Below are positions 17,871-48,165 of a DNA stretch of 48,165 bases, piece by piece. The position numbers were made by a program, and so were the translations under genes. Position 1 is the stretch's first letter, and the number at the start of each line of letters is the position of its first letter. The stretch covers positions 1-48,165 of the IMG/VR virus record IMGVR_UViG_3300021168_000045; one strand, given 5' to 3'. The stretch is from a virus. The notes below the pieces were generated by a model. That model was not told the DNA's origin. It made no database searches and was given only the letters and a program-made list of their open reading frames with translations.

Positions 17871-20800
17871 TTACGGTACACAATTATAATCCACAGTAAT
17901 AGTAAGTCCGGTAACGGCCACTCCGGCGGTAATATTCATGCCAGTGGTCGTTGCCACACTATGTCCAATTCCTAAAAATCCCACTCCACCATTTTCACTA
18001 GTTGTACAAACTGGAGCAGCCGCAACTGCGGTCCAACTTAAAGTTGCGATAGTTCCAGTTGTTGCTGTTCCGCCTACGATTGTATAACTCCCTCGATTTG
18101 ATGTGCATGTAGCTGTAGCGCAGGTACAGGAAGTTACATTAGTTCCAGGTGTGCACGTTGCTGTTTGAGCGGGATAAAATGTACCCAAACTAACACAACT
18201 ATAAACTCCACTCCCATTATCGCTCCATGTTTGGTTAGCAGCGCAAGGTAAAGATGGGAGTGTAACTATTTGAGTGCCTTGTGCTGCGTTGGCTTTCAAT
18301 GTTACATTTGTCTTCGATGTTGAGCCTTGAAGTATATAACTATTAAACGGTCCCATATTAGGCAATGAACTATCTGCCTGAGTACAGTTACCGCTAGGAG
18401 TAATGCTGTTATTGTCCAAGTAGGTTAAGACATCCACTCCATTTATTGTGGTAATAAAACCTTCTGCACCAGTCGCACCTCTGCAAATAATATATTGTGT
18501 GGCCCCAGGAATACGGCTCCATGACCATAGGATTGAGTTGGTATTTAGTCCACTGCTGTCAGTGGTTATGCATGTTTCTGCACTAGCCACGCCACTACCA
18601 GCAGTATTTTTAGCATATACTCTAAAACATTCCTGAGTTGCATCAGGGAACGTTCCTCCTCCAATCATCTTTACTGGAGTCCCATTGACGGGAACTGTTA
18701 AGGCTAGGCCTTGGAAATTATCGCTAGCTGAAGTCTTACTTAGTGGACCATCTAAAATAGTATTAGAACCAAGTAAGCGAATGGCTCCACCACTCATAAC
18801 AATATTATTTGAATGCGGAGCATAGGTTAACGAAAAGTTACCACCATTACCCTGCGTGAAGATTTCACCAAATATATAGTTTGGATCGGCTTGTTGGGCA
18901 GCAGTAGTGAATGAATAGATAAGTGATCCTCCAGACGCGCTCGGACCTTCACTATGAACATATCCATACGAATACGGGCCCTGTTCGTTTAAAATATTAG
19001 CTGGGTTAACAGTGTTACCGCCTCCTCCAACATATGTGGTATCACCACCGCCTAGGGCATTAATCTTTACAAACGCATTAGAGGAAACTGAATTATTACC
19101 GCCAGTAAGACCATTGGCGGTAATAACAACTCCATTACCGAATGCCCAAGGATTATGATTTATTACAAATGTTGAAAAGCCAGTGAAGATTGCTGATTGA
19201 TGATTGGGCTGTTCAATGGTGTCACCATTGTGAACGACGAGCGTGTTGCTTGGGTTTGGGACTAGAGTTCCATCTACGCAAGGCGCAATCGTAGGCAGAA
19301 CACAATTTGAAGCACCCTGAATGTAATCTTGTACATCCCAAACATCGGCAGTGCCGTATATAGCAACATCGTTATTCCCAGGAGACGCCGTAGCCGTCGC
19401 AGCCGTGTGTGAACCGGTAAGCCCTGCAATAGTACATTGAAATTGTACGGGGCTAAGCCACACTCCGTTAGTGCAAGTGGTATTAAATGCTGAATCTGAA
19501 CTTCCGGATATTTTCCACGGACTCTTATTTCGAGAGATGGGAGCATTGAGCGTACTACCTGTAACTACATAAGTTGCATTTATCAAAGTGGGCGTCGCGG
19601 CTGAATTGGAAATATTGGAAAGGTTTATAAATTGATAATCCGGTGCACCATTCTTTGAAACCTGCGTTCCATTGCCAGCTAAAGAGACAACCTGAACTAT
19701 ATTTGCTGTGGTTGAACCGACAACATATTGAAGATATCTAAGGTTAGATGAGACTATACCCCTATAATCAGTAGCATCCCAAGCTAATCCAGCAGCCCCG
19801 CCCTGTTCAAAAACTGAACCTGTTCCGTGCGGCTTATGGATAGGCATAGTAATCGCCCATGTTGTACCGCTAACAAATGCCACCACGGTCGGGTAGGTGC
19901 ATTCATATGTAGTCCCGCCAATACAGGCGATTCCGGTAAGCGTGGACGCCACACCGACAACAGGAGTTCCGCTACTTATGTTTACATTGCATGTGATCGT
20001 CTGAGTGAAGGGGTAGACCGTAATAATTGGATTAGGCGCGCATTCACCTACTAATGACCCAATAGCGTTACTTATGGGGACTGTGAAGTCTACAGTAATA
20101 TTAGAGCATCCCCCACCGCAGCCGCTATTGTCGATGTTCGTGAAGTGTCCTGAATAAACTGGACCTGCGGTCGTGTCGATTATCGGCAGGCCGTCACCCA
20201 TAACTGCACCGTTCGCACCGATGGTAGTCTTAATCGTAGTTGGACTGGTCAGAGTCCCACCTGTGACAGCAGTTCCTAGATATGGAGTTGTTAATTCAGT
20301 TGTTCCATCAGCAAGCGCCTTGGCTCCCTCTCCAGAGGCGTCCACTTGTCCGCCGCGTCCGTACACGTTCGGGTAAATCGGCGCGTTATCCCCTTCACTG
20401 TATTTGGTCTGGACGAGACCGATCGACTCCGCGAGAGTCGCGCCGCGAATCGTGTGATTGATAAAAAGGGGGACTGGAACGTACCAGCCACCCTTCGGGG
20501 CTCCAGGTGGATTGCCGACGTTCCAGCCAGGGTTGTTGTCGGTGAAGATCAGAGAAACGCCATATTTAGACGTGGATTGAGCAGCAGGTTGCGTTGAAGG
20601 ATTCTGATCGACCAAAAACCCCAAATTGATTGCAGAAGAGCGTGGATCTCCGAATAGCGGTGTATCCAACCAGTTATGATAGTAATTTGTCCATCGCTGC
20701 TGTCTATAATCCTGAAAGTTGCAAAAATTACAAGGTAATGTTGACGGAGTATATTGTTCCGTAATCGCATAAGTTGGATCGGCTATACACGTTGAAGCGT

Positions 20801-21584
20801 TGTTAAAACATTGTAAAATACCATTCGTAGCACCATCTCCGAAGTGAGTTGCATATCCAATTCCACCAATAAATGGAGCTGTATAAGCTCCATTACTACC
20901 AGTCGCAATATCTTGAGTATGAGTAGTGGTATTAATTGTAATATTAGGATCACAATTCAAGGCACCGCTAGTACTAATCTGTACAGTGGTATTAGTGGCA
21001 CAAGGTGGACCACCACCCGGCCCAAGTGTTTGCCAAGTAGTTCCATTCCATTCACGGGTTACGTTAGAAACGACATTAAAATATCTCCCTCCCGGAAGGG
21101 GAGTGGGAAATACTTCAGTATCATTATAACCATAAGCTCCACTAACCGCTGCAAATCTAGGAGTAGTTACTAAAGAACTAAGTGTTGAACTTAGATTTTC
21201 AGTTGCTCCATTAACACTAATGTTTGAAATTACTGAACAAGGAGCAACTGTTTTAGCACAAAGTGTAAATGTATAAGACGATCCAGCAGGTTGAATTGCT
21301 GTGTTATCATATACAGTTACACTAAACGTCCCTGTTCCATCAGCAACTCCAGGATCGGGATTAGCAATGCTTCGATTAATTGGAGCGCCTGTAGATGCAA
21401 TTACGTAATTATTTAAATTTGGATAACTAGGATTGGGTACAAATGTAACACGCCACTTCATTCCAGACCATACTTGAGAATCACTATCAGTTATAGTTGC
21501 AGTAATAGTAGTAGTTTGCGCAGCTAAAGGTATAACTAAACCAACTACACCCAAAAATCCAATAAACCATTTTCTTAATTGCAT
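17871..21584 (-). CDS. tail spike/fibre 1 with signal peptide, 1237 aa
   Basis: The start is set at 21584 because GGAGG lies nine bases upstream; two earlier Met or alternative codons give up to 12 extra residues. Residues 1-23 form a Sec signal peptide (Arg-Lys, then a Leu/Val/Gly core, then Ala-Ala-Gln). Residues 24-160 match the N-terminus of the neighbouring spike, including Tyr-Gly-Tyr-x-Asp-Thr-Glu-Val and Trp-x-Gly-Thr-x-Trp-Gln. The rest is Gly/Thr/Ser/Asn-rich β-structure, typical of virion receptor-binding proteins, with Cys pairs near the C-terminus. The DNA around 20170-20560 is richer in G+C than the rest, so the gene is mosaic. It may be exported, which is odd for a phage tail protein. 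Confidence 0.8.
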   Translation of the reverse strand: MQLRKWFIGFLGVVGLVIPLAAQTTTITATITDSDSQVWSGMKWRVTFVPNPSYPNLNNYVIASTGAPINRSIANPDPGVADGTGTFSVTVYDNTAIQPAGSSYTFTLCAKTVAPCSVISNISVNGATENLSSTLSSLVTTPRFAAVSGAYGYNDTEVFPTPLPGGRYFNVVSNVTREWNGTTWQTLGPGGGPPCATNTTVQISTSGALNCDPNITINTTTHTQDIATGSNGAYTAPFIGGIGYATHFGDGATNGILQCFNNASTCIADPTYAITEQYTPSTLPCNFCNFQDYRQQRWTNYYHNWLDTPLFGDPRSSAINLGFLVDQNPSTQPAAQSTSKYGVSLIFTDNNPGWNVGNPPGAPKGGWYVPVPLFINHTIRGATLAESIGLVQTKYSEGDNAPIYPNVYGRGGQVDASGEGAKALADGTTELTTPYLGTAVTGGTLTSPTTIKTTIGANGAVMGDGLPIIDTTAGPVYSGHFTNIDNSGCGGGCSNITVDFTVPISNAIGSLVGECAPNPIITVYPFTQTITCNVNISSGTPVVGVASTLTGIACIGGTTYECTYPTVVAFVSGTTWAITMPIHKPHGTGSVFEQGGAAGLAWDATDYRGIVSSNLRYLQYVVGSTTANIVQVVSLAGNGTQVSKNGAPDYQFINLSNISNSAATPTLINATYVVTGSTLNAPISRNKSPWKISGSSDSAFNTTCTNGVWLSPVQFQCTIAGLTGSHTAATATASPGNNDVAIYGTADVWDVQDYIQGASNCVLPTIAPCVDGTLVPNPSNTLVVHNGDTIEQPNHQSAIFTGFSTFVINHNPWAFGNGVVITANGLTGGNNSVSSNAFVKINALGGGDTTYVGGGGNTVNPANILNEQGPYSYGYVHSEGPSASGGSLIYSFTTAAQQADPNYIFGEIFTQGNGGNFSLTYAPHSNNIVMSGGAIRLLGSNTILDGPLSKTSASDNFQGLALTVPVNGTPVKMIGGGTFPDATQECFRVYAKNTAGSGVASAETCITTDSSGLNTNSILWSWSRIPGATQYIICRGATGAEGFITTINGVDVLTYLDNNSITPSGNCTQADSSLPNMGPFNSYILQGSTSKTNVTLKANAAQGTQIVTLPSLPCAANQTWSDNGSGVYSCVSLGTFYPAQTATCTPGTNVTSCTCATATCTSNRGSYTIVGGTATTGTIATLSWTAVAAAPVCTTSENGGVGFLGIGHSVATTTGMNITAGVAVTGLTITVDYNCVP

Positions 21585-24166
21585 GTACATGCGCCTCCAG
21601 CGCCTACTACTGTAGAACAATAACCAATAACTATAGGTGGACCACTAGATTTAATACATGAAGCCTGCCCAACAGTGGGACTTCCTGTGACCGGAACACT
21701 ATTGCTACCAGAAATAATTGTACTTCTTATTGTAATATTATTCTCATCATTAGTTCCAAAAGCACTATTAGTACCTGGACCAGTAGGAAGATTGATAAGT
21801 CCTTGATTTCCCATTGCTCCTATTTGGAATATACCTGAATTAGCATCCCCACAAATAATATAAGGTTGTGTAGATGATCCCGTTGTTGAATAATTAGAAT
21901 TTATATTAGCAAAAGAAACTGCACCTTTCAATCTCACACCACAAAATCCACTAGTGATAGTTCCAGAATCTGCTGCGGCACTTACATTTCCATGTGTTAC
22001 TGCTGCGCTTGTTACCGAAAAACTACTGCCAGAAGCTACTGTAACAGTTAATGTTAAACCATTAAGAAATGAAAGATTAGTAAGTCCAGAGAATACAAGA
22101 TTCTCACCTACAAAATAAGTATTCGTTGCTGTAAAAGCACCAACATTAGATATCCATGAGTCGTTTGTAATCGTAGCAGCAGTCCATGAAGATCCATTAT
22201 TAAACATGAAGTTATTATTAATTGAAGTATTAGGAGGTGTACCTCCGCCAGTATCTAATTCAACTGCATCTCGGCCCATACCAATAAAGCTGTTATTATT
22301 AATTTGTGTTCCGCTTGCATTTTGGAATACATGAACTCCATACCAGGTGGTTGGAGTTCCCTGAAACATATTATTAGCAATTAAAACTGGTTCAAATTGT
22401 CCAGCACAATTAGTTATACAATGACTCTCAATTACAGATTCTCCAGTTCCTGCGCCACCTATTTGATAAAATACATTGTCAGATATGATAATATTAGCCG
22501 CTGACTCAACAAAACTAAAACCAAAACCATCACCGGTTCCTAGGCAAGTATTTCGACTATAGATAATTTGATTTGAATCTTGGCCATTCCCAGAACCATT
22601 GAAATCAAAACATTGTCCTGGATGATTAATAACTAAATCATGAAAATTAATATTATTTCCATAATCTCCCGTGGATACCGCTATATAGGGAATATTAGTT
22701 AATGTCCCTGAGTAAATCTCATCCCCAGTTGATGAAGGATCACCAACGGCTCCAGTATCAACGGCACTAGCAACATTTGCATGAGTAAAATTAGCTGTAA
22801 ATGTTGACGCAGGTACACCAGGAACTCCAGAAGTTACAGTTAATGGGATTCCATTAATGAATGGAAGATTAGTAGAACCAGTTACGATAACTGTCTGTCC
22901 TGGGAAAAATAGATTACTAGCTGTTATAGTTATAACATTACTAGTTAATGCCGAATTAGTAATCGTAGCCGTCGCAGATTCAACTCTTACTCCAAGTATT
23001 CCACTTATAGTAGGACTATAAGTAGTTGATAAAGTAAAATTATGTACACTAGCAGCGGTATCAGCAAATAAATGTATCATATTAACACCGATATTACTAA
23101 GTGTACCTGCTGCTATATTACATCCTGACATTTCAAAATTCGGTGAGTGTGATACATCTAAAGTTCCATATAAACCACTATCAGGATCTGTTCCTGGAGT
23201 CGTATAAGTTACTGTCAATGGTTGTGATGTATCACATCTTAGTTTAATTCCTGTTTTAAACCTTACTAAGATAGGTGTGCTTATTGTATATGCACTAGGA
23301 CTAGGTGGTACTACTATTGTACATGGTATAGAACAAGAAACTATCGCATTATTTATAGGAACCGCTACATCACCTGCAATAGCTTGAATAATTATTGAAT
23401 TATTCAATGTAGTTAAAGTATTAACTGCACCACTAAAATTTGCACCTGAAAGAAGTGCATATAGTGCATTTTGAGTATCTACATAGTGTTTAGTAGCTGC
23501 CTGTAATGAAGTTGTTGGATCACCATTTAAAGTTAACGGACCAAGTAAAGTACCACCACCGATTGGTAAATATGCTCCAGTACCTCCAATAATTGACTGC
23601 CAAATCGTACCTGTCCATTGTCTTGTAGTTGCAGTTATCACATTAAAATACTGACCACCAGGTACGGGAGTTGGACTTACTTCAGTATCACTATAACCAT
23701 AAGCATCAGCACTTCGTGATGCTGAAAATCGTGGTGCGATTGAGTTAGTACTTAGAAAGGAGCTAAGATTAACACTTGTACCACTTACTGCCAAACTATT
23801 ATAAACAGTAGCAGCAACTGAAGCATTTGGCTTAATTGTAAAACGCCAAGTTCCTCCAAATGGACTTGAAGCTACATTATCTAAAAGTGTAACAGAGAAA
23901 CTTCCAGTACCATCACAACTACCATTTTGTTGTAGATAACTATTATAAGTAGGTGATGTAAAACTTACTCCATTATAGTTATAAGTAGATGCATTTGGAT
24001 AAGCTGCGCTAGGAATAAATGTAACACTCCAACTACAATTAATCCATGCTTGTCCATCGGAATCAGTAACTGTTGCTGTAACCGTTGTAAATGGAGCAAC
24101 GCAATGAGCAAGTGGTAAGAAGCAAAAAGTTATAACCAATAGACAGATTATCCTAAATTTTAGCAT
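21575..24166 (-). CDS. tail spike 2, β-helix, with signal peptide, 863 aa
   Basis: Residues 1-22 form a Sec-type signal (Lys-Phe-Arg, Leu-Leu-Val-Ile core, Leu-Ala-His-Cys). Residues 23-175 are the module shared with spike 1. Residues 265-660 look like a right-handed parallel β-helix of pectate-lyase type (Asn-x-Ile-Ile-Ile-Ser-Asp-Asn-Val, Gln-Ile-Asn-Asn-Asn-Ser), as in polysaccharide-cleaving tailspikes. Two related β-domains rich in Asn, Thr and Val interrupt it near 400-470 and 675-740. It ends in Cys-Thr-Cys-Asn. Likely host-surface binding or degrading activity. It overlaps spike 1 by 10 bases. Confidence 0.8.
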   Translation of the reverse strand: MLKFRIICLLVITFCFLPLAHCVAPFTTVTATVTDSDGQAWINCSWSVTFIPSAAYPNASTYNYNGVSFTSPTYNSYLQQNGSCDGTGSFSVTLLDNVASSPFGGTWRFTIKPNASVAATVYNSLAVSGTSVNLSSFLSTNSIAPRFSASRSADAYGYSDTEVSPTPVPGGQYFNVITATTRQWTGTIWQSIIGGTGAYLPIGGGTLLGPLTLNGDPTTSLQAATKHYVDTQNALYALLSGANFSGAVNTLTTLNNSIIIQAIAGDVAVPINNAIVSCSIPCTIVVPPSPSAYTISTPILVRFKTGIKLRCDTSQPLTVTYTTPGTDPDSGLYGTLDVSHSPNFEMSGCNIAAGTLSNIGVNMIHLFADTAASVHNFTLSTTYSPTISGILGVRVESATATITNSALTSNVITITASNLFFPGQTVIVTGSTNLPFINGIPLTVTSGVPGVPASTFTANFTHANVASAVDTGAVGDPSSTGDEIYSGTLTNIPYIAVSTGDYGNNINFHDLVINHPGQCFDFNGSGNGQDSNQIIYSRNTCLGTGDGFGFSFVESAANIIISDNVFYQIGGAGTGESVIESHCITNCAGQFEPVLIANNMFQGTPTTWYGVHVFQNASGTQINNNSFIGMGRDAVELDTGGGTPPNTSINNNFMFNNGSSWTAATITNDSWISNVGAFTATNTYFVGENLVFSGLTNLSFLNGLTLTVTVASGSSFSVTSAAVTHGNVSAAADSGTITSGFCGVRLKGAVSFANINSNYSTTGSSTQPYIICGDANSGIFQIGAMGNQGLINLPTGPGTNSAFGTNDENNITIRSTIISGSNSVPVTGSPTVGQASCIKSSGPPIVIGYCSTVVGAGGACTCN

Positions 24167-24167
24167 T

Positions 24168-24254
24168 TTACACCCACCAGTAAGTAAAATCTAGCTCATC
24201 TTCGATAAAGTAATTAAGTTGGCAACCAATCAGTAATCTTTGATTTTTAGCCAT
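24168..24254 (-). CDS. possible 28-aa peptide
   Basis: An ATG at 24254 overlaps the stop of the ATP-grasp gene and runs 28 codons to a TAA one base before the spike 2 start codon. An AAGGA lies about 10 bases upstream. The peptide has a hydrophobic start, an acidic middle and an aromatic end (Thr-Tyr-Trp-Trp-Val). Coupled stops and starts on both sides favour it, but it is very short. Confidence 0.45.
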   Translation of the reverse strand: MAKNQRLLIGCQLNYFIEDELDFTYWWV

Positions 24255-25545
24255 TAGAAAACCATCCTTGTTCATCAAGTTTCATATAACGTTCCAGAGT
24301 TGATTTCTGAATATCCGACCGATATTGCATATCAGGGACTTGAATCTTTTTCACACGAGCTTTAAGTTTCTGGAAAGCCTCAGTCGAGGAGGAACCAGTT
24401 TCAATCGGGCACAAAAGTAAACCATTAACACCAGCGCATTCAAGATGGTCTTTTTTACTAACTTTCACATCGTACATATAAGTCTTGAGCATTTCTTCTG
24501 GATCATTCAAATCAATCCCTTCAATCGGTACTCCCTGTAACTTCGGTAATCTTATCTCTGTTGGATAAGGTGGGATAGTAATTCTAACCGACGCTCCAAA
24601 CTCAGCTTTCCATGACTGTTCAGGTACTTCACCTGATGCTGTTCTACGAAGTAACTCTCCATAATCACCACCATACATGCAAGCCAAGGTAGCAGAAGCA
24701 TCGTAGCCAAAGCGAGGAGTCCATTCAAGGCCATATAGTTGAGTCTCAGTTAGGATAGAGTTAAGATCAATCATTCCCTGAAAACCTATCGACGCTAGAA
24801 CATTCTTGCACTTTTCTAAACCTTCAACGAAGATACGTGCTTTTGATCCCAAAGTAAACACGAGATTACCACTACACCCAGTGTTGGGACCAATATTATC
24901 ACACATAAATTTCTTGTCTTCTATAGTGCAATTGAGACAATAAAAATCTTGACCATTAAACCAACCTTCAACACTACACTCAGTTCCTTCGATAAATTCT
25001 TGTAATACAAAGGGAGTACCTTTACTTGAGGCGAATACTTTATCAATAACTTGAAGTAAATCTTCAGCGCTCTTACTTACATATGTAGTCGCTGCATCTT
25101 GATCTTGACCACCATTTGGTTTATAGACATAGCGTTTATCTGTCTTCTTAATAAATGATTTCGCAGCATTTACATCCGCAAACTCTTCATATGGCGGAAC
25201 GTTTACATTAGCCGCTTCCATCATTTTAATTCCCTGCATACGATCATCTTCCATAATACAATGCCAAATACCATCACCAATTGTGGGACATTGTTTAAGA
25301 GAATGATTCGCTTGGAACTTACGACCAGTTAAATCAAATAAACTTAGATCATATTTCTTATATTCAGGAAACCCAACCTCATTCCTGCGATGATCCAACT
25401 TCACAATTTTAGGCGAAACTAGCCCTCCCAAGATATCCTGGTATTGAGGTAATGATAGATAATAGTCTACTTTATGTCCTTCAAGTTGAAGTCTTAAAGC
25501 AAACCACGCCCCATACCCGGAATAACTTGAGAGAGCTATTTTCAC
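24247..25545 (-). CDS. ATP-grasp ligase, PurD-like, 432 aa
   Basis: GTG start at 25545, immediately after the previous stop. An N-terminal α/β segment (1-100) precedes an ATP-grasp fold: Tyr-Val-Tyr-Lys-Pro-Asn-Gly-Gly (about 139-146) as the nucleotide Lys strand, Val-Leu-Gln-Glu-Phe-Ile-Glu-Gly (about 178-185) as the hinge, and Leu-Glu-Trp-Thr-Pro-Arg-Phe-Gly near 275 in place of the metal-binding Glu/Asn-Arg strand. The nearest family is phosphoribosylamine-glycine ligase (PurD), which joins glycine to phosphoribosylamine in purine synthesis. A phage copy among late virion genes could instead make an amide bond on a cell-wall, protein or nucleotide substrate. Substrate unknown. Confidence 0.8.
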   Translation of the reverse strand: MKIALSSYSGYGAWFALRLQLEGHKVDYYLSLPQYQDILGGLVSPKIVKLDHRRNEVGFPEYKKYDLSLFDLTGRKFQANHSLKQCPTIGDGIWHCIMEDDRMQGIKMMEAANVNVPPYEEFADVNAAKSFIKKTDKRYVYKPNGGQDQDAATTYVSKSAEDLLQVIDKVFASSKGTPFVLQEFIEGTECSVEGWFNGQDFYCLNCTIEDKKFMCDNIGPNTGCSGNLVFTLGSKARIFVEGLEKCKNVLASIGFQGMIDLNSILTETQLYGLEWTPRFGYDASATLACMYGGDYGELLRRTASGEVPEQSWKAEFGASVRITIPPYPTEIRLPKLQGVPIEGIDLNDPEEMLKTYMYDVKVSKKDHLECAGVNGLLLCPIETGSSSTEAFQKLKARVKKIQVPDMQYRSDIQKSTLERYMKLDEQGWFSNG

Positions 25546-25737: not shown

Positions 25738-26148
25738 TTAAGATGCAGTTGGATCGAAAGTAATAGTTCCAAAGAATCGCTTACAATAACGAACTGACCC
25801 TTTGTAACCACCACATTTAACTTGGTAACCGTACCAAGTAATAGTCCCACCAGGAAAAGACCCTGTGTTAGTAGCTCCAATTTCAAAAGCTGGAGATTCA
25901 AATTCGGTTACATTGAGAGAGAATCCGTTTTGTCCTTGTGGATCATACTGCCACAAAGTAACAGCACCATCACTACCAAATTGAAGTGCTAACTGTTCGT
26001 AAAGATTACCTTGCCAGTCAGTTACATTAGTAGCAAGACAAGTTGTTCCATATTGAGTAGTACCACATGCACCACTAAAACCATATGTCTGTGCCTTTGC
26101 AACCGATACCGAAAGTACAAGAATCAAACCTAGAATAAATTTCTTCAT
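25738..26148 (-). CDS. secreted small protein, 136 aa
   Basis: Residues 1-19 are a textbook Sec signal peptide (Met-Lys-Lys-Phe, then an Ile/Leu/Val core, then Ala-Lys-Ala) with cleavage before Gln20. The mature 117 residues are β-rich, with Cys at about 28, 37, 111 and 121 that could form two disulfides, and many Gly, Thr and Tyr. No family recognised. A secreted protein made late in infection could alter the cell envelope, block superinfection or aid release. Confidence 0.8.
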   Translation of the reverse strand: MKKFILGLILVLSVSVAKAQTYGFSGACGTTQYGTTCLATNVTDWQGNLYEQLALQFGSDGAVTLWQYDPQGQNGFSLNVTEFESPAFEIGATNTGSFPGGTITWYGYQVKCGGYKGSVRYCKRFFGTITFDPTAS

Positions 26149-45419: not shown

Positions 45420-45623
45420 TTAGTTTTGTTTTAGTCCTAGTTTTGAAATTTCCCACGTTCCTGAACATCCACTTCCATTACAACAATCATCAGTTTGAAT
45501 ATCACAACAAGTTGGACATTTCTGAGGTGGAAGTGGTGCTGGCATTCCAGGGCCAGCGAAAAGAGAATGAACACTAAAGATTAAACTTGAGATTAGTAAA
45601 ATCTTAACAATCATTCTTTTCAT
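45420..45623 (-). CDS. secreted Cys-rich small protein, 67 aa
   Basis: Residues 1-23 are a signal peptide (Met-Lys-Arg-Met, Ile-Val-Lys-Ile-Leu-Leu-Ile-Ser core, then Leu-Phe-Ala). The mature part has Pro-rich residues, then Cys-Pro-Thr-Cys-Cys and Cys-Cys-Asn-Gly-Ser-Gly-Cys, seven cysteines probably in disulfides. It sits directly before the large terminase. A secreted product from the terminase block is unusual. Confidence 0.75.
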   Translation of the reverse strand: MKRMIVKILLISSLIFSVHSLFAGPGMPAPLPPQKCPTCCDIQTDDCCNGSGCSGTWEISKLGLKQN

Positions 45624-47984: not shown

Positions 47985-48165
47985 TTGGGGGAAGGGTTGG
48001 TCGAGAGATTGACGCCTGATTCTAGGCGTCTTCTCTATCCTTACCCCAGCCGCCAGGGCGAAAGTAGCTAACCCCTTTAAAACCACTCTCTTCGCTCCAA
48101 CTACTCCCTGCTACATGGTATTGACGGGGGGTACCGCTGTCCCTTAATGGTATTAAAAAAAAAAA
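47985..48165. other. non-coding right end with poly(A)
   Basis: Apart from the terminator-like stem, this holds C-rich and G-rich tracts, a TTGACG (48121-48126) with CTTAAT 16 bases later that might be a weak promoter, two ATGGTATT copies (48115 and 48147), and a terminal run of 11 A. No gene is seen. Confidence 0.6.
48011..48036 (+). terminator. intrinsic terminator
   Basis: GACGCCT (48011-48017) and AGGCGTC (48024-48030) form a 7-bp stem with a 6-base loop, followed by TTCTCT. It lies about 26 bases after the stop of the last gene and should end the 47103-47984 transcript. Confidence 0.8.

Follow-up and report, generated by a model that had tools for sequence, protein, structure and literature searches.

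The late operon of the soil phage analysed here ends in two overlapping genes, designated spike A and spike B, whose products both begin with a predicted Sec-type signal peptide, a feature that recurs in nearly all proteins sharing their N-terminal module and in tail genes of cultured phages of Acidobacteriota. Tailed phages are understood to build and complete their particles within the cytoplasm. On balance, we favor the reading that A and B are receptor-binding spikes that are exported, cleaved, and folded with disulfides outside the cytoplasm, and that join the particle at or after lysis.

The window, i.e., the whole stretch of DNA analysed, is a 48,165-base virus record from IMG/VR in which early genes lie on the plus and late genes on the minus strand. 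PHROGs recognise a terminase, a portal, and a major capsid protein; the three genes share one strand, and the spikes lie within this late structural operon, which they close as an overlapping pair with B upstream and A downstream. The features considered below are as follows.

17871-21584, minus strand: spike A, 1237 aa with ATG 21584 as start, 30 Cys in the mature chain
21519-21584, minus strand: predicted Sec signal peptide of spike A, 22 aa, ..PLAA/QTTT
21009-21518, minus strand: N-terminal module of spike A, beta-sandwich plus YFNV..WNGTTWQ motif, with a Cys109-Cys116 pair
21594-21598, minus strand: ribosome-binding site (GGAGG) of spike A, located within the end of the spike B gene
21575-24166, minus strand: spike B, 863 aa, with 16 Cys in the mature chain and 3 in the signal (19 in total)
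24095-24166, minus strand: predicted signal peptide of spike B, about 20-24 aa, exact cleavage site uncertain
23591-24094, minus strand: N-terminal module of spike B, without the usual Cys pair and with Cys44 and Cys84 instead
24247-25545, minus strand: ATP-grasp protein (PurD/GARS-like), directly upstream of spike B
25738-26148, minus strand: candidate exported accessory protein, 136 aa, signal peptide ..AKA/QTYG, 4 mature Cys

The listed open reading frame (ORF) of spike A opens at TTG 21620; the GGAGG at 21598-21594 lies 3 nt before ATG 21590 and 9 nt before ATG 21584, and because of the latter spacing we took ATG 21584 as the start. The two spike genes overlap by 10 nt. Neither spike had a significant match in Pfam, PHROGs, NCBIfam, or PDB sequences, the remainders of A and B beyond the module matched nothing at E 1e-3 except the window itself, and searches with spike B alone (against viral contigs) and with the rest of spike A were without yield. 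No other spike candidate was seen among the late genes of the window. Promoter and terminator scans of the window were at or below shuffled expectation, and no tRNA genes were found in it. A-rich runs occupy both record ends (1-60 and 48106-48165), and the record may be incomplete.

Both N-termini show the order of a Sec signal, with charged, then hydrophobic, then small residues, namely MQLRKWFIGFLGVVGLVIPLAA followed by QTTT in spike A and MLKFRIICLLVITFCFLPLAHCVA followed by PFTT in spike B. When the N-termini of 49 window genes were ranked by hydropathy, the top four belonged to spike B, the 136-aa gene at 25738-26148, spike A, and a 67-aa gene at 45420-45623. This last is a Cys-rich ORF with a hydrophobic N-terminus, which adjoins the large terminase gene. 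Cleavage of spike B after CVA would put a proline at +1, leaving its exact site uncertain; in a lipobox test, the LAHC of B only comes near a lipobox, and A and most relatives have Gln at +1. Signals were called with a rule of our own rather than SignalP, based on a positive n-region, an 8-residue hydrophobic core, and small residues at -1 and -3, and this rule was tested against the control phages described below.

A preliminary description of this region had proposed signal peptides on both spikes and a common N-terminal module with the motif Tyr-Gly-Tyr-x-Asp-Thr-Glu-Val, and had suggested looking for that module in other phages; the Sec-type N-termini and the alignment bear out both proposals. 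The two modules, with AYGYNDTEV and AYGYSDTEV as their motifs, are 44% identical over 198 aligned residues including the signal (E 8e-40), and beyond them A and B show no similarity, i.e., a conserved N-terminal part is followed by an unrelated remainder. Using HMMs built from the mature part of the module only, we obtained 112 matches in IMG/VR viral contigs, which reduced to 54 distinct ORFs by identical module keys, both window spikes included. A signal ending before the module was found in 51 of these 54 (50 by the rule, which in this final count required cleavage before the module, and the L068 ORF 3118 by eye), and in 44 of the 51 signal-bearing rows an [AGSC]Q lies no more than 5 residues ahead of the module. 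Whole-record searches added three further signal-bearing module copies. One L030 ORF (11700) was once flagged by the rule with the proposed cleavage inside the module, and is not counted as bearing a signal. In an earlier run, the rule also picked out 28 among 411 other ORFs from these loci, several of which are additional signal-bearing genes, large or small, next to the spikes.

These relatives carry the spike between or after structural genes. In a tree of the module, spike A groups with L015, L008, L009, and L013 (support 98/88) and without B. The duplication and divergence put forward in the preliminary description is therefore borne out only in part, as the two modules are not a recent within-genome duplication. 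Outside IMG/VR, the spike B module had no match in INPHARED phages, INPHARED searches with one full L057 spike and one L081 spike were without yield, and module and capsid profiles gave no confirmed match in contigs of 84,980 bacterial and archaeal species (genome_contigs). The YFN..WNGTxW motif at the module end recurs in the fibre-like proteins L005-L007, which carry no signal and have nothing but this motif in common with T7-type fibres; they were not counted as relatives. A plasmid match of L012 was likewise set aside as a short SGNH hydrolase stretch. Module exchange may have affected the spikes L002 and L075, whose best-matching module profiles differ although the two share 53% identity along some 1,330 residues.

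Exported and fully disulfide-bonded proteins are expected to hold an even number of cysteines once the signal is removed. This was the case for 47 of 51 complete signal-bearing module proteins, a count that excludes L003 and L055 (cut by contig ends) and L086 (a copy reaching a contig end) and keeps the three L030 ORFs apart; the four odd ones are L017, L021, the second L019 copy, and a 149-aa L059 ORF. Restricted to proteins with at least 3 Cys, the mature number was even in 45 of 49 module proteins vs 24 of 48 control proteins from these phages (p 5e-6 by Fisher's test, a value that ignores relatedness). With one random member taken from each of 36 clusters (40% identity, 60% coverage), p was still 1e-8 or lower; looser clustering (30% identity, 40% coverage) left only 2 clusters, at which the parity test is without power. 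In 15 proteins the signal itself holds an odd number of cysteines, and the mature count is even in 14 of them, so that parity appears only after cleavage. The same pattern extends to signal-bearing genes beside the spikes that have no module (mature Cys even in 13 of 14, and in 9 of 9 where the signal count is odd), which range in size up to a 1,690-aa protein. Within the module, the usual Cys pair was complete in 22 of 30 rows and wholly absent in 8, and no row had one cysteine only. A pairwise table of Cys gains and losses was left unused, as differences were not consistently paired (L002/L075, 7 vs 11). Taken together, signals and parity form the signature of exported, cleaved, and disulfide-bonded proteins, and we regard export as well supported on these sequence grounds.

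The 1,690-aa neighbour just mentioned (L036 5667-10754) follows a module-bearing spike, carries a signal and 50 mature Cys, and has a weak match to a chitobiase C-terminal domain. Small signal-bearing proteins also recur beside spikes (L090 3233-4016, which is Tunturi_5 gp339 and gp340; L004 3881-4252; L060 6975-7436), and may act as exported chaperones or as accessory subunits.

The three module proteins that lack a signal all come from one contig, 3300036846_000366 (L030), where they stand in tandem, and no signal was found upstream of the module in their reading frames. They occupy the same locus as their relatives, where the ATP-grasp gene precedes them and the same replication genes face them. 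In the tree they make up one clade (100/97) lying among rows that bear a signal, a placement that suggests one loss of the signal. Their cysteine content is low as well: 12 Cys in 1,879 residues (0.64%) vs 1.92% in signal-bearing spikes and 0.13% in homologues of window virion genes from these phages (25 Cys in 18,794 residues). Since the L030 counts are also even (2, 2, and 8), it is low content and not parity that separates the signal-less trio. The PurD/GARS-like ATP-grasp gene is found near the spikes of many relatives and of L030 too, and is therefore not tied to export.

A structural model of the module was of high quality (pLDDT 93.6), while the full-length model of spike B was unusable beyond the module (pLDDT 47). 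At Z 8.5-9.1, the module model resembles transthyretin-like domains of teneurin, carboxypeptidases, and a SusC N-terminal domain. At Z 7.0-7.8, it matches the starts of three phage chains, namely the neck fibre and the tail fibre of cyanophage A-1(L) and a tail-tip chain of lambda. Foldseek gave no PDB match to it at E 1e-3 or better, and a Pfam scan of 20 module sequences gave none above gathering score, carboxypeptidase regulatory-like and transthyretin-like domains included, L057 matching CarboxypepD_reg at E 0.0027, below the cutoff. In BFVD, similar folds were found in several annotated tail fibres and a depolymerase. One parallel is the N-domain of the A-1(L) neck fibre gp82, a beta-sandwich that likewise stands at the N-terminus of its chain (Z 7.8 across 91 residues); extracts of the structural report describe gp82 as docking the fibre on the neck, with residues 1-125 attaching it to gp5 (PMC10966104). 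Unlike the window spikes, however, gp82 starts at Met1 without a signal in that structure, and the match is near the level of a common arrangement. Fold matches at Z 7-8 may indeed represent no more than such an arrangement and are no proof of docking.

Gene order also bears on the question of a virion role. In Pf-WMP3, whose terminase weakly matches that of the window, two overlapping tail-fibre genes (ORF24 and ORF25) close the late operon in the same layout, which supports a virion role for A and B. The fibres of Pf-WMP3 and gp17 of T7 and of K1F resemble the spikes in being large proteins at a late-operon position, but differ in having no signal peptide in our tests; they hold 3 Cys (T7 gp17), 8 Cys (K1F gp17), and 3 and 1 Cys (Pf-WMP3).

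Cultured phages extend this picture. A family spike (L012) matches the tail fibre gp342 of Tunturiibacter phage Tunturi_5, isolated on an acidobacterium, and gp342 is homologous to the module-bearing spikes L079, L081, L021, and L012. We examined five cultured Acidobacteriota phages (Tunturi_1, 1-40 kb; Tunturi_2, 1-50 kb; Tunturi_3, whole; Tunturi_4, 1-50 and 72-88 kb; Tunturi_5, 276-307 kb), and in four of them (Tunturi 1, 2, 4, and 5) found signals on genes annotated as tail fibre, tail spike, tail protein, or virion structural protein. Signals are seen on gp12, gp13, gp14, gp16, and gp17 of Tunturi 1 and 2, gp113 and gp114 of Tunturi_4, and gp337 to gp342 of Tunturi_5. In addition, the frame of the tail fibre gp111 of Tunturi_4 (L100 8074-11172) opens upstream of the annotated start with a ribosome-binding site and a signal, and that start appears to be too far downstream. 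The Tunturi signals end mostly in [AG] followed by Q, and after their removal the number of cysteines is even in 15 of 16 proteins (two have 0 Cys), the exception being Tunturi_2 gp16 with one mature Cys. Tail proteins of these four phages (PMC11924767) thus resemble the window spikes in Sec-type signals and even mature cysteines, but differ in being without the window module, for which no HMM match was found in the Tunturi isolates; the shared trait is therefore export, and not one protein family. Nor is export obligatory, since Tunturi_3 infects an acidobacterium and none of its tail genes, across the whole genome, carries a signal.

No signal was called in the Tunturi terminase, portal, and major capsid genes tested, in any of 72 ORFs of at least 300 aa from the fetched regions of six control phage records (T7, K1F, B124-14, crAss001, Pf-WMP3, and a Manatee Spring phage), or in any of 22 tail or neighbouring late genes of these records at their annotated starts. 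Of the two approaches, the annotated-start test is the better one, the ORF scan being prone to undercounting (it returned 2 of the Tunturi_2 signals seen at annotated starts).

From these observations, a maturation route can be outlined. In the short-tailed window phage, whose host is most likely an acidobacterium, spikes A and B would be made as precursors, each led by a type I Sec signal peptide, and the host Sec machinery would export them; cleavage would fall typically just before a Gln. They would then fold outside the cytoplasm with all cysteines paired, and their transthyretin/carboxypeptidase-regulatory-like N-terminal module would be the part most likely to dock on the virion. Because spikes and particles would be made on opposite sides of the membrane, they could meet only when it fails at lysis, or just after release. 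Conserved signals, a cleavage motif, parity after cleavage, paired module cysteines, the joint loss in L030, and the Tunturi features were all obtained by computation, while the host, a place in the virion, the formation of disulfides, and joining at or after lysis are what we infer. Periplasmic disulfide folding and attachment outside the cytoplasm, which the preliminary description had listed among possible reasons for export, thus receive strong support from the signals and even cysteine counts of the relatives and from the cultured Acidobacteriota phages. A partial parallel exists in pIII of filamentous phages, a virion protein that binds the receptor, passes through Sec, and forms disulfides, as proposed here for the spikes; unlike the window phage, however, these viruses are assembled at the membrane and extruded, with no tail and no lysis.

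The same export signature would be expected if A and B were not virion parts at all, and instead secreted enzymes or adhesins that, for example, clear exopolysaccharide for the progeny or block superinfection. This possibility, which includes the secreted depolymerase of the preliminary description, gains from the enzyme-like or sugar-binding domains of some family spikes (a GDSL lipase in L021, a K1-lyase C-terminal domain in L081, and Laminin_G_3 in L057), from the annotation of Tunturi_2 gp14 as a pectin lyase, and from the fact that a phage encodes several such signal-bearing proteins, a number beyond the usual needs of a tail. However, the module family is also present without a signal at this locus in L030, the module fold resembles virion-docking domains at fibre N-termini, the tail fibres of Pf-WMP3 occupy the same place, and the late genes of the window offer no other spike candidate. 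We consequently consider a purely secreted role weakened and rather unlikely, albeit one to be kept in mind.

Two further explanations retain the spikes on the virion and dispense with cleavage or with export. In one, the N-terminus stays uncleaved and anchors the spikes in the inner membrane, from which, after periplasmic folding, they join particles as pIII of filamentous phages does; the N-termini are hydrophobic throughout, and the filamentous phages offer a precedent. Yet a small residue followed by Gln stands just before the first strand in the 44 of 51 rows noted above, and parity is restored only without the signal in 14 of 15 proteins, both pointing to cleavage, and we think such anchoring very improbable. 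In the other, the N-terminus is a mere hydrophobic docking segment that inserts into the tail within the cytoplasm, and spike N-termini do normally dock on the tail in known phages. This leaves aside the high and even cysteine content, the co-occurring Cys pair, the cleavage-type motif, and the small exported-type proteins nearby that carry the same signature, so that we find it scarcely credible. Spikes that are exported, cleaved, and later attached therefore remain our preferred explanation.

More broadly, many phages of Acidobacteriota, whether podo-, sipho-, or myoviruses, might finish their virions outside the cytoplasm by means of Sec-exported adhesins that acquire their disulfides periplasmically or at the cell surface and are attached during or after lysis, a two-compartment route that arose or spread with unrelated N-terminal modules; for this wider proposal, we see the case for and against as evenly balanced. 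The open-access PMC literature searched gave no account of tailed-phage spikes with signal peptides. In the main text of the Tunturi paper, the term “signal peptide” does not occur and proteomics is mentioned only as future work (PMC11924767), and, in the portion of a Bacteroides DGR paper that we draw on, the absence of signals is taken as support for a phage origin of DGR proteins (PMC6199706). The window spikes would then be a variant of tail spikes, with the assembly route itself possibly new. If they are exported, disulfide-bonded adhesins, the last step of tailed-phage assembly happens outside the cytoplasm, and a signal peptide is no ground to dismiss a protein as non-viral. Such a route could account for the production of stable adhesins for life in soil, and the cultured phage-host pairs allow it to be tested directly.
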